Positions 40,577 through 43,624 of a DNA stretch of 64,000 bases are shown piece after piece. The DNA is from Thermus caldilimi (GTDB lineage Bacteria; Deinococcota; Deinococci; Deinococcales; Thermaceae). Location of the stretch: positions 1-64,000 of the forward strand of contig NZ_CP038452.1 of NCBI RefSeq assembly GCF_004684245.1, given 5' to 3'. Below the pieces are notes generated by a model. It had not been told where the DNA came from. It saw nothing but the letters and a program-made list of their open reading frames with translations, and made no database searches. A program made the translations under genes and the position numbers. How positions within the stretch are numbered: position 1 is the first letter of the stretch; the number at the start of each line of letters is the position of its first letter.

Positions 40577-41652
40577 GGCAGGCGGTACCCCGCCTGAGCC
40601 AGCACCTCCCGGGCCCTTTCCCGCTCCTCCCGGCTGGCGAAGCCCAAGCGGATGGCCCCGGCTTCCTCCCGGATGGTGAGGACCTCGATGTCCTTGATGT
40701 TCACCCCCGCCTCCCCCAAGGCGGTGGCGATCCTGGCGATCTGGCCGGGGCGGTCCGGCACCTGGACCACCAGGTCGTGCATCTCGGGAAGGAGGCTCCG
40801 GCGCACGATGGGGAGGCTATCCCGGGTGCGCTTGGCCTCTTCCGCCGTCCGCAGGAGGGCTTCGGGTTCATCCAGAAGCCCTTCCAGTTCCCAAAGCGCC
40901 GCGCGCAACTCCTCTATGGCTTCCTTGAGGGCCTCCTTGTTCTCCACCACCATGTCCCGGCTCATCCGGGGGCTTCCTGAGGCCACCCGGGTGAGGTCGC
41001 GGAAGCCTCCGGCGGCCAGGAACATCAGGAGGTCCCGGTGGGGGCTTTGGGCCACCAGGCGGTTCAGGGCCACCGCCAGGAGGTAGGGCAGGTGGGAGAT
41101 GCGGGCCACCAAATTGTCGTGCAGCTCCGGGGTCATCTCCAAGGGGTAGGCCCCTAGGGCCTCCACCAGCTTCCGGATTCCCGCCTTTGCCCGGGGGCTG
41201 GTGTGCGGTGTGGGGGTCAGGACCCAGATGGCGTTTTGGAGAAGGCCGGCGTGGGCATTCCCCACCCCGGCCCGCTCGCTCCCCGCCATGGGATGCCCCC
41301 CCAGGAAGTGGGGGAGGAGGCCCTCCAGGGCCCCCACCACCTTGGCCTTGACGCTGCCCACATCGGTCCAGAGGCTTTCCGGGCTGGCGAAGGAGGCCAG
41401 GGCTTTCCCCAGGTCCACCAAGGCCCCCACAGGGGCGGCCAGGACGCCCAGCTGAAGCTCCCCTACCCAGGGTCCCAAGGCGGGGTGCACCCGGTCCGCC
41501 ACCCCCAGGAAAAGGGCCTTTTCCAGGGCCTCGGGATCCTGGTCGTAGGCGTGGATCTCCTCGGCCAGGAAGCGTTCCTTCAGCCCCAGGGCCACGCTCC
41601 CGCCCAGAAGCCCCACGCCGAAGATGCCCACCTTGGCGAAAAGGGGTTTCAT
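40573..41652 (-). CDS. tyrA: Prephenate dehydrogenase with C-terminal ACT domain
   Basis: A 359-residue enzyme of tyrosine synthesis that oxidatively decarboxylates prephenate to 4-hydroxyphenylpyruvate. The NAD fold has KVGIFGVGLLGGSVALGL. Catalytic-region segments are LGGHPMAGSERAGVGNA and HDNLVARISHLPYLLA. A C-terminal ACT domain (about 285-359, MHDLVVQVPDRPGQIARIAT) probably binds tyrosine. The frame is open further upstream, but ATG 41652 overlaps the aroF stop by four bases. It is co-transcribed with aroF behind the attenuator. Confidence 0.94.
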   Translation of the reverse strand: MKPLFAKVGIFGVGLLGGSVALGLKERFLAEEIHAYDQDPEALEKALFLGVADRVHPALGPWVGELQLGVLAAPVGALVDLGKALASFASPESLWTDVGSVKAKVVGALEGLLPHFLGGHPMAGSERAGVGNAHAGLLQNAIWVLTPTPHTSPRAKAGIRKLVEALGAYPLEMTPELHDNLVARISHLPYLLAVALNRLVAQSPHRDLLMFLAAGGFRDLTRVASGSPRMSRDMVVENKEALKEAIEELRAALWELEGLLDEPEALLRTAEEAKRTRDSLPIVRRSLLPEMHDLVVQVPDRPGQIARIATALGEAGVNIKDIEVLTIREEAGAIRLGFASREERERAREVLAQAGYRLP

Positions 41653-42683
41653 CCCAGAACCGGTGTGGAAAGGGTTTTGCCCAGGGCCTCCACCAGGCGC
41701 CGGGCCTTGGCCATGAGCTCGGCAAACTCCAGCTCGTGAAGCTGCTGGGCCGCATCGGAGAGGGCCTTTTCGGGCTCGGGGTGGGTTTCCACGATGAGGC
41801 CATCCGCCCCGGCGGCCAACCCCGCCAGGGCCAGGGGGATGACCCATTCCCGCCGGCCTGCGGGGTGGGAGGGATCCACCCAGACGGGGAGGTGGGTGGA
41901 GCTCTTGAGCACGGGAACCGCCGCCACGTCCAGGGTGTAGCGGGTGGCCTTCTCAAAGGTGCGGATGCCCCGTTCCACCAGGATCACTTGCATATTGCCC
42001 CGGGAGAGGATGTATTCCGCGCTCATCAGGAACTCTTCCAGGGTCATGCTCATGCCCCGCTTGAGGAGGACGGGTTTTCCCACCTCACCCACCGCCTGAA
42101 GCAGGGGGAAGTTCTGGGCGTTGCGGGCCCCGATCTGCAGGACGTCGGCGTACTCCGCCACCAGCTCCACCTGGTCTGGGGATAACACCTCGGTGACCAC
42201 GGGAAGCCCGGTTTCCCGTCGGGCCTCCGCCAGGATCTTCAGGCCCTCTACCCCCAAGCCCTGGAAGGCGTAGGGGCTGGTCCTGGGTTTGAAGGCCCCG
42301 CCCCGGAGTATGGCGGCCCCGTGGGCTTTCACGTAGCGGGCGGCCTTGAGGGTCTGCTCCCGGGACTCCACCCCGCAGGGCCCGGCGGCGATGAGCACGT
42401 GGTCTCCACCCGTTTTCCCGGTGGGGAACTCCAGCACCGTGGGGAAGGGCTGGACCTCGAGGCTCGCCAGCTTGTAGGGCTTGGAGATGGGGATGACGTC
42501 CGCCACCCCGGGAAGGGCGCGGAAGTGTTCCATCAGCTCCGGGGTGGGCCCGCGGCCGATGGCCCCCACCAGGGTGGTTTCCACCCCCCGGGAAACATGG
42601 GGCCGGTACCCCACCTTCTCGATTTCCCGGATGACCTCATCCAGCTCCGCTTCCGTGTGTCCCCGCTTCATCACGATCAGCAT
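41649..42683 (-). CDS. aroF: 3-deoxy-D-arabino-heptulosonate 7-phosphate synthase
   Basis: A 344-residue DAHP synthase of the type I-beta group, joining PEP and erythrose-4-phosphate as the first step to aromatic amino acids. The N-terminal ferredoxin-like regulatory domain (1-75, [18 protein letters not shown]) is the feedback module. The barrel has [47 protein letters not shown] and [17 protein letters not shown] precedes the ATG. It is the first structural gene after a Tyr/Phe-rich leader peptide and attenuator, so it is likely controlled both by effector binding and by aminoacyl-tRNA supply. Confidence 0.95.
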
Positions 42684-42703
42684 CTTGGCCTCCTAAAAGC
42701 CTT

Positions 42704-42728
42704 GGGCGCCCCCTTTTTGGGGGCGCCC
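42704..42728 (-). terminator. Attenuator terminator hairpin (segments 3:4) before aroF
   Basis: On the minus strand GGGCGCCCCC (42728-42719), loop AAAAA, GGGGGCGCCC (42713-42704), then AAGGCTTTT. A perfect 10-bp stem. Its 5' arm can instead pair with an identical copy of the 3' arm inside the leader coding region (42767-42758), extended by TGCGG (42757-42753)/CCGCA (42736-42732), giving a 15-bp competing antiterminator. The U run is imperfect and slightly displaced. Confidence 0.75.
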
Positions 42729-42743
42729 TCTTGCGGAAAAACC

Positions 42744-42809
42744 CTATGCGGACCGCAGGGCGCCCCCGGCGGGATAATAAAAGCCAAAGTAGCGCCCATA
42801 GGTCCGCAT
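42744..42809 (-). CDS. Tyr/Phe-rich leader peptide of the aroF-tyrA attenuator
   Basis: A 21-codon reading frame too short for usual gene calls. It begins ATG 42809 and ends TAG 42744. The peptide starts MRTYGRYFGFYYPAGG and ends ALRSA: four Tyr and two Phe, with YFGFYY consecutive, and no Trp. It starts three to four bases after the predicted transcript start, so it is nearly leaderless. Codons 1-6 form RNA segment 1, which pairs with segment 2 (42767-42746) at the end of the same frame. Ribosome stalling at Tyr/Phe codons 7-12 would mask segment 1 and free segment 2 to pair with segment 3. Confidence 0.8.
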   Translation of the reverse strand: MRTYGRYFGFYYPAGGALRSA

Positions 42810-42819
42810 ATTGCCCCTA

Positions 42820-42848
42820 AGCTTAGTTAAGGGGGAAACCCCTGTCAA
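42820..42848 (-). promoter_or_regulatory. Promoter of the aroF-tyrA operon
   Basis: On the minus strand TTGACA (42848-42843), 17 bases, TAAGCT (42825-42820), predicted start near 42813. The TGA inside the -35 is the stop codon of the upstream VOC gene. The -10 overlaps the small palindrome TAAGCTTA. Confidence 0.8.
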
Positions 42849-43624
42849 GAGGGCGTAGGGGCCTTGGTCCTTGGACCTGAAAGGCGAACCTCTGCCCCTG
42901 TGGGATCCCTGAGGGCCATCTCCCGGCCCCAGGAATCCAGAAGGGTGTAGCCCAGAAGCCCAGTGGACCCTGGGGGGGCTTTCCGCCTTCCTGCCCAGAT
43001 GTTGGCTCCCACGTGGTGGTGGTAGCCATCCCAGGCGAAGAAGAGGGCCCCGGGGTAGGTGCGCAGGGTGACCTCCATGCCCAGCTCGCCCGCAAAGAAG
43101 GCCTCGGCTTCCTCGAGGCTTTCCACGTGGAGGTGCAGGTGGCCGAGGAGGGTCTCAGGGGGAAGGGGGCCGGGGCTTGGAGCCTCGGAAAGAAGCCTTT
43201 CCAGGTTCAGGGGAGCGGTGAACATCAAGGGTCCTTTGGGCCACTCCCCCTCAGGCCGGTCCCGGTAGAGCTCGAGGCCATTCCCCTCAGGATCGCGGAA
43301 GTACAGGGCCTCGGATACGCCGTGGTCCGCCGCGCCCTCAAAGTGGACCGGGGCGCTTAGGAGCTTCCGGGCCACCTGCGCCAGGGCCTTCCGGTCGGGG
43401 AGGAGGAGGGCGAAATGGTAGAGACCCACCGAGGGGTAGGGTCTTGGGAGGGCCTGGGGGTCGTGGAGGATCTCCAGATGGAACCCCTTCCCCTCAGGGA
43501 ATAGCCGGTAGCGGGGTGGGTCCGCCTCCACCTTTAGGCCCAGAAGGTCCCGGTAAAAGGCCAAGGCGGCCTCCAGGTCCCGCACCCTTAGGCTCAGGGA
43601 GGAAAGCCGCCTGGGGAAAGGCAT
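42845..43624 (-). CDS. Two-module VOC-family protein (glyoxalase/extradiol dioxygenase-like)
   Basis: A 259-residue protein with two vicinal-oxygen-chelate modules: LSSLSLRVRDLEAALAFYRDLLGL with ALYFRDPEGNGLELYRDRP (1-125), and GHLHLHVESLEEAEAFFAGELGMEVTL-type repeats (about 160-250). It resembles the CatE-like subgroup of catechol 2,3-dioxygenases. The usual first metal His of module 1 appears replaced (SLSL), while YHFALL, LELY and HLHLHV supply other candidate ligands. The substrate is unknown. Its ATG overlaps the YceI stop by one base, and its TGA lies in the aroF promoter. Confidence 0.8.
   Translation of the reverse strand: MPFPRRLSSLSLRVRDLEAALAFYRDLLGLKVEADPPRYRLFPEGKGFHLEILHDPQALPRPYPSVGLYHFALLLPDRKALAQVARKLLSAPVHFEGAADHGVSEALYFRDPEGNGLELYRDRPEGEWPKGPLMFTAPLNLERLLSEAPSPGPLPPETLLGHLHLHVESLEEAEAFFAGELGMEVTLRTYPGALFFAWDGYHHHVGANIWAGRRKAPPGSTGLLGYTLLDSWGREMALRDPTGAEVRLSGPRTKAPTPS

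Follow-up and report, generated by a model that had tools for sequence, protein, structure and literature searches.

A putative Tyr/Phe leader-peptide attenuator upstream of aroF-tyrA in Thermus caldilimi and its relatives in the Thermaceae

The window (the whole 64,000-nucleotide stretch of T. caldilimi DNA analysed here) carries aroF and tyrA on its minus strand, preceded by a promoter and a short reading frame:

41649..42683, minus strand: aroF, DAHP synthase type I-beta, 344 aa
40573..41652, minus strand: tyrA, prephenate dehydrogenase; its start and the aroF stop overlap by 4 nt (ATGA)
42689..42694, minus strand: Shine-Dalgarno AGGAGG of aroF, read from the sequence
42744..42809, minus strand: leader peptide ORF MRTYGRYFGFYYPAGGALRSA, 21 codons plus TAG, near-leaderless, without a Shine-Dalgarno
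42820..42848, minus strand: promoter, with the -35 box TTGACA at 42848-42843, a spacer of 17 nt and the -10 box TAAGCT at 42825-42820; 10 nt separate the -10 box from the leader ATG

The aroF product was identified as a type I-beta DAHP synthase by NF006421 (482.7 bits, cut-off 335) and TIGR01361 (383.8 bits, cut-off 267.75), and it shows 96% identity to the aroF product of T. tenuipuniceus. The tyrA product matched PRK06545-type prephenate dehydrogenase models with a best score of 264 bits, which is below that model's equivalog cut-off and supports assignment at the family level only. Upstream on the same strand, a gene at 43624-42845 terminates at the promoter; weak matches suggest a VOC-type (glyoxalase/dioxygenase-like) product. 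A search upstream of a paralogous chorismate mutase-DAHP synthase gene (G000:C1, ~1613 kb) found no leader, and that gene looks leaderless itself.

The original prediction placed a TTGACA-N17-TAAGCT promoter and a 21-codon frame containing YFGFYY ahead of aroF, and both were confirmed on the minus strand, the frame at 42809-42744. Tyr or Phe is encoded at leader codons 4, 7, 8, 10, 11 and 12, forming a cluster at codons 7-12 ahead of aroF-tyrA. Conservation and a ribosome model, both described below, define a narrower sensor region, and codon 12 follows it at 42776-42774:

42777..42791, minus strand: sensor codons 7-11 (Tyr-Phe-Gly-Phe-Tyr)

Such clustering is exceptional in the sequence scanned. 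When the window and 400 kb of the same genome were examined (464 kb in total), the leader ORF, with its two in-frame starts, was the only one among 11,587 short-ORF starts to hold five aromatic codons within six. Tyr codons in the 28 Thermus-type leaders were mainly TAT (47 TAT, 24 TAC); in six neighbouring genes TAT was rare, with 4 TAT vs 39 TAC. The position of the -10 box suggests that transcription starts near the leader ATG, making the leader near-leaderless. In all 45 relatives the promoter was near-consensus, with TTGAC(A/G), a spacer of 16-18 nt and a -10-like box 8-12 nt 5' of the leader ATG. A leaderless arrangement of the -10 box with which this spacing agrees has been reported for Deinococcus-Thermus (PMC12340547).

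Four segments within and downstream of the leader ORF can pair in competing ways:

42792..42810, minus strand: segment 1, which holds the leader start codon and pairs with 42763-42745
42746..42767, minus strand: segment 2 (GGGGGCGCCCTGCGGTCCGCAT), inside the ORF, an alternative partner of segments 1 and 3
42719..42736, minus strand: segment 3 (CCGCA ... GGGCGCCCCC), which pairs with segment 2 (anti-terminator) or segment 4 (terminator)
42704..42713, minus strand: segment 4, the 3' arm of the terminator-like hairpin, which pairs with segment 3
42695..42698, minus strand: offset U-tract (UUUU), 5 nt 3' of the hairpin

Stem 1:2 joins 42809-42801 to 42754-42746, with one more pair possible, and 42797-42792 to 42763-42758. 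Stem 2:3 joins GGGGGCGCCC at 42767-42758 to GGGCGCCCCC at 42728-42719 and is extended by TGCGG at 42757-42753 with CCGCA at 42736-42732. Stem 3:4 joins 42728-42719 to 42713-42704 around a loop of AAAAA. All the coordinates and pairings originally given for the three competing stems are present in the sequence. Segments 2 and 4 had also been described as sharing an identical sequence, and they do have a palindromic core, GGGCGCCC, in common. The minimum free energy of the region 42850-42684 was -74.5 kcal/mol (z -4.96), and none of 200 dinucleotide shuffles was equally stable. Across the Thermus set, the 2:3 and 1:2 duplexes were better than ~99.9% of mononucleotide-shuffled partners.

We searched 50 Thermaceae genomes for aroF and found an orthologue in 45. 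Upstream alignments, proposed with the original prediction as a check, showed that the aromatic codons and the alternative pairings were conserved in 45/45, each genome having a leader ORF with an aromatic core ahead of aroF. The loss of conservation that the original prediction had named as a refutation was thus not seen. The relatives examined include T. scotoductus, T. brockianus, T. igniterrae, T. composti and T. parvatiensis, as well as M. granaticius, M. rufus, M. luteus, M. taiwanensis, Calidithermus chliarophilus and C. roseus. Two leader types were seen, a Thermus type, MRTxGRYFGFYYPAGGALRSA (n=28), and a Meiothermus/Calidithermus type, MQT...RFFGYFYWPxVPVRxA, with the core RFFGYFYWP (n=17). 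The core [FYL]-G-[FY]-[FY] is common to both. Phe10 and Tyr11 do not vary among the Thermus-type leaders, and position 8 holds Phe in 27/28 and Tyr in 1/28; codon 12 is variable, with Tyr12 replaced by Pro or Arg in 5/28.

The helices 1:2, 2:3 and 3:4 are mutually exclusive in both clades. The 3:4 hairpin is GGGCGCCCCC-loop-GGGGGCGCCC, perfect over 9-11 bp, in all 28 Thermus-type sequences; all 17 from Meiothermus and Calidithermus have CTTCCGGGG-loop-CCCCGGAAG, or a sequence very like it, with a U-run behind it. In both clades the 5' arm of 3:4 has a second partner in the 3' part of the leader ORF, which in turn pairs with the ORF start. From one clade to the other the stem sequences change completely, yet the 1:2, 2:3, 3:4 logic persists. 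The leader start codon and the 3' end of the ORF are base-paired in every aligned sequence, a pairing maintained through A-U/G-U and G-C/G-U changes, and variation within clades is mostly silent or compensating. One genome (G035) shows coupled changes in the 2:3 extension, from TGCGG to TTTGG in segment 2 and from CCGCA to a CC..AAA form in segment 3. In the Meiothermus set 95.6% of cells pair, compared with a shuffle mean of 93.7% and a shuffle maximum of 94.7%, and double-sided changes occur at 6 pairs vs a shuffle mean of 2.06 in what is a small and related set. The Meiothermus 2:3 duplex alone is modest, 14% of shuffles being as stable. Segments 2-4 are almost invariant in Thermus, so covariation evidence is thin there, and swapping segments across clades discriminates weakly because all partners are GC-rich.

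In one MAG (G012; L044/L138) the attenuator hairpin lies 129 nt 5' of aroF, with a TTGACA-like stretch between. This stretch suggests an added promoter that would bypass the attenuator.

The effect of ribosome position was modelled on RNA truncated after the 3:4 loop and folded with a ribosome footprint extending 12 nt beyond the A site. For the window's leader, the predicted probability of 2:3 was ~0.9-1.0 with A-site codons 2-11 and 0.1 at codon 12. Averaged over the 28 Thermus genomes, the model gave 0.89 at the last invariant aromatic codon (11) and 0.10 at the next; the corresponding modelled mean in Meiothermus/Calidithermus fell from 0.72 to 0.50 after the last Tyr and before the Trp. 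A footprint 3 nt shorter shifts the switch edge by one codon, and the footprint is uncertain by about one codon. In this folding model the control codons are placed such that a stalled ribosome frees segment 2. The original prediction that stalling at codons 7-12 frees 2:3 therefore holds up to codon 11 in the model; at codon 12 the ribosome would mask segment 2. In full-length RNA at equilibrium, 3:4 prevails over 2:3 for most positions of the stalled ribosome, and the switch therefore has to be kinetic and co-transcriptional, as in known attenuators.

These results support an attenuator, with the anatomy, the conservation, the retention of the alternative pairings in two clades of different sequence and the promoter position observed and the ribosome positions that allow 2:3 modelled. 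Very probably, judging from sequence and folding model, the element is a transcription attenuator of the ribosome-mediated kind, through which the supply of charged Tyr-tRNA and Phe-tRNA sets the level of aroF-tyrA transcription. We infer that the leader is translated, that transcription terminates at 3:4 and that read-through responds to Tyr and Phe. The near-leaderless 21-codon leader would be translated behind RNA polymerase. When Tyr and Phe are plentiful, the ribosome would complete the leader and cover segment 2, the 3:4 hairpin would form and transcription would stop before aroF. When Tyr or Phe is short, the ribosome would stall at codons 7-11, covering segment 1 and leaving segment 2 free to pair as 2:3, and aroF-tyrA would be transcribed. 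If the leader were not translated, 1:2 would form and bury the leader's own start codon, and 3:4 would follow.

Because the near-leaderless start codon pairs in 1:2 with the last codons of its own ORF, the decision could be a one-shot event. Read-through would then be decided solely by the first ribosome, which would load while segment 2 is still to be transcribed, and termination in Thermus at a 10-bp GC hairpin with a U-tract offset by ~5 nt, at ~70°C, would depart from the standard intrinsic terminator. We put this forward tentatively and regard it as a possibility with the odds somewhat against it.

The 3:4 hairpins differ between clades in what follows them. Meiothermus and Calidithermus have the intrinsic terminator features of a GC hairpin and a U-run; Thermus has a GC hairpin with a short, offset U-run. 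In the window no U directly follows the hairpin, and the tail is AAGGCUUUUAGGAGG. In each of the 28 Thermus-type sequences, 3-6 other bases come between the hairpin and a U3-U6 tract that runs up to the Shine-Dalgarno, and none of the 28 has an adjacent U-run. Without an adjacent U-tract, termination is inferred more weakly in Thermus than in Meiothermus/Calidithermus. A survey of 400 kb of the same genome gave 39 hairpins downstream of genes; only 8 of these had four or more U within the first 6 nt, and the offset form was seen at 4. At the trpE attenuator hairpins of Thermus, U-tracts range from an adjacent U5 to GGCGCUUUUUU. Offset or interrupted tracts at several trpE attenuators and at some gene-end hairpins make offset tracts look normal in Thermus.

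The offset U-tract, and the end of the hairpin lying 19-23 nt before the aroF ATG and near the Shine-Dalgarno in 28/28, would also fit a translated attenuator leader in which the Thermus 3:4 hairpin controls aroF translation initiation or mRNA stability rather than transcription termination. We consider such an output improbable. Modelled Shine-Dalgarno-to-AUG accessibility of aroF in Thermus was equal in both states (mean 0.62 vs 0.65), so translational control is not favoured, and Shine-Dalgarno sequestration was rejected as the output. Further, the Meiothermus/Calidithermus homologue has a classic U-run at a variable spacing of 22-129 nt, and the span of U-tracts at the trpE hairpins also argues against this alternative.

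The position of the upstream gene, on the same strand and ending at the promoter, raises the question of whether 3:4 is merely the terminator or insulator of that gene, with the leader ORF and the other pairings arising by chance, since pairing is easy in GC-rich sequence. However, promoter, leader and hairpins persist while the upstream sequence and neighbours vary among relatives, the aromatic codons are kept in every genome with this aroF, pairing far exceeds that of shuffles and the ORF is unique in the sequence scanned. This reading is largely refuted and we regard it as very unlikely. A riboswitch that binds a tRNA or a metabolite (a T-box or another kind), the ORF being incidental, has in its favour solely that an alternative-structure leader precedes an amino-acid operon; it is just as hard to credit, since an Rfam search of the region returned no family at the gathering cut-off and no T-box or amino-acid leader even at E 10, and what the clades share is a reading frame with Tyr/Phe codons, not stem primary sequence.

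The proposed attenuation by a leader peptide also has a parallel within these organisms, which counts in its favour. Near-leaderless Trp leaders with GC hairpins precede trpE in Thermus and relatives of the order, including MSPLPALWWPG, MALPSALWWPG, MKRFAVRFWWWPG and MNAYVTYWWWQPEKPRV, each followed by a stop codon (upstream of trpE at L207, L211, L214, L217, L224, L202, L209 and L206). They resemble the aroF leader in being short and near-leaderless, with control codons and a GC hairpin with an adjacent or offset U-tract; they differ in having Trp in place of Tyr/Phe and in being shorter. An attenuator-like structure before T. thermophilus trpE was reportedly described by Sato and co-workers in 1988.

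In two sister families of the order (f4 and f5) the Thermaceae leader is absent, and another short ORF, sharply conserved and containing DDGYGY, stands before aroF. This ORF contains the motif GGNGGNNNNRTGGANGAYGGNTAY and encodes ...GG-A-(M/V)(D/E)DGYGY...; it has an RTG preceded by an SD-like GGAGG, and an in-frame ATG beside a -10 box (L230-L244, for example G060:C2:1219106-1219129 (+) and G090:C3:63993-64016 (+)). The exact motif was found in 15/111 genomes and the reversed-pattern control in 0; a search allowing 2 mismatches was too loose to inform. No clear terminator was seen with the DDGYGY ORFs ahead of aroF. In both genomes of one genus an MDDGYGY leader lies before tyrS, encoding tyrosyl-tRNA synthetase (L243/L274 at G096:C32:5890, and L277 in G097), which ties the motif to tyrosine; a full-length aroF match was not found in these two genomes. 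The DDGYGY ORF may be a separate Tyr-sensing leader of another design.

In other phyla, genomes of Deferribacteraceae and Syntrophobacteraceae-like bacteria also have Phe-rich candidate leaders, which lie ~120-150 nt before aroF (L150, L151, L160, L166 and L172), for example MLNRLFYGFFFGFFFYCFFSNRSVAV and a peptide ending in RGFFFGFFFFFWPVRPGD, both followed by a stop codon. Aromatic leaders before this kind of DAHP synthase are therefore probably not confined to Thermaceae.

With the proposed attenuator, entry into the aromatic pathway would come under a specific, testable control in the Thermaceae, among them the much-used T. thermophilus, which also has relevance to metabolic engineering in Thermus. 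It is a case in which leader, codons and switching logic outlast a complete turnover of the stems' sequence, and it lends itself to work near 70°C on the coupling of transcription to translation and on termination at hairpins whose U-tract is imperfect.

The original prediction knew of no earlier description of such an attenuator in Thermus, and this holds in part. A putative attenuator before T. thermophilus aroAIbeta > tyrA, the same operon in the same genus, was tabulated from Merino's database by Song et al. 2005 (Table 7; PMC1173090). The entry is one table row, and the passages that go with it give no leader peptide, Tyr/Phe codons, conservation or mechanism. Leaderless leader peptides are likewise known: in Streptomyces lividans trpL/leuL/ilvL (PMC8079986) and Sinorhizobium peTrpL, in S. 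meliloti (PMC7298713), transcription starts at or beside the leader ATG and some lack a U-tract; these leaders belong to other phyla and other amino acids. Titles, abstracts and passages of the other papers found on Thermus and on attenuation contain no description of an aroF-tyrA leader element. On these sources, the Tyr/Phe leader peptide, its family-wide conservation, a design that differs by lineage, with stems peculiar to each clade, and the agreement between codon conservation and the predicted switch edge appear to be new.

The closest tested analogue is the aroR-aroF attenuator of Corynebacterium glutamicum (Neshat et al. 2014, as described in PMC11802643), which is ribosome-mediated, has experimental support and places an aromatic leader peptide (Phe-Tyr-Phe) before a DAHP synthase gene. 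Its leader and phylum are unrelated, and in that account it responds to Phe and not to Tyr, whereas the Thermus leader has both Tyr and Phe and the operon contains tyrA. The uORFC-13-1 motif before Acholeplasma aroF likewise sets a Phe-containing uORF and a terminator ahead of a DAHP synthase gene, but it has an RBS and is restricted to Acholeplasma and environmental sequences (PMC8632094). None of the Rfam amino-acid leader models matches the Thermus element. The E. coli pheA (pheL), pheST and trp leaders, which have SD-led leaders and a clear U-tract, have in common with it the 1:2, 2:3, 3:4 logic with control codons in the leader.
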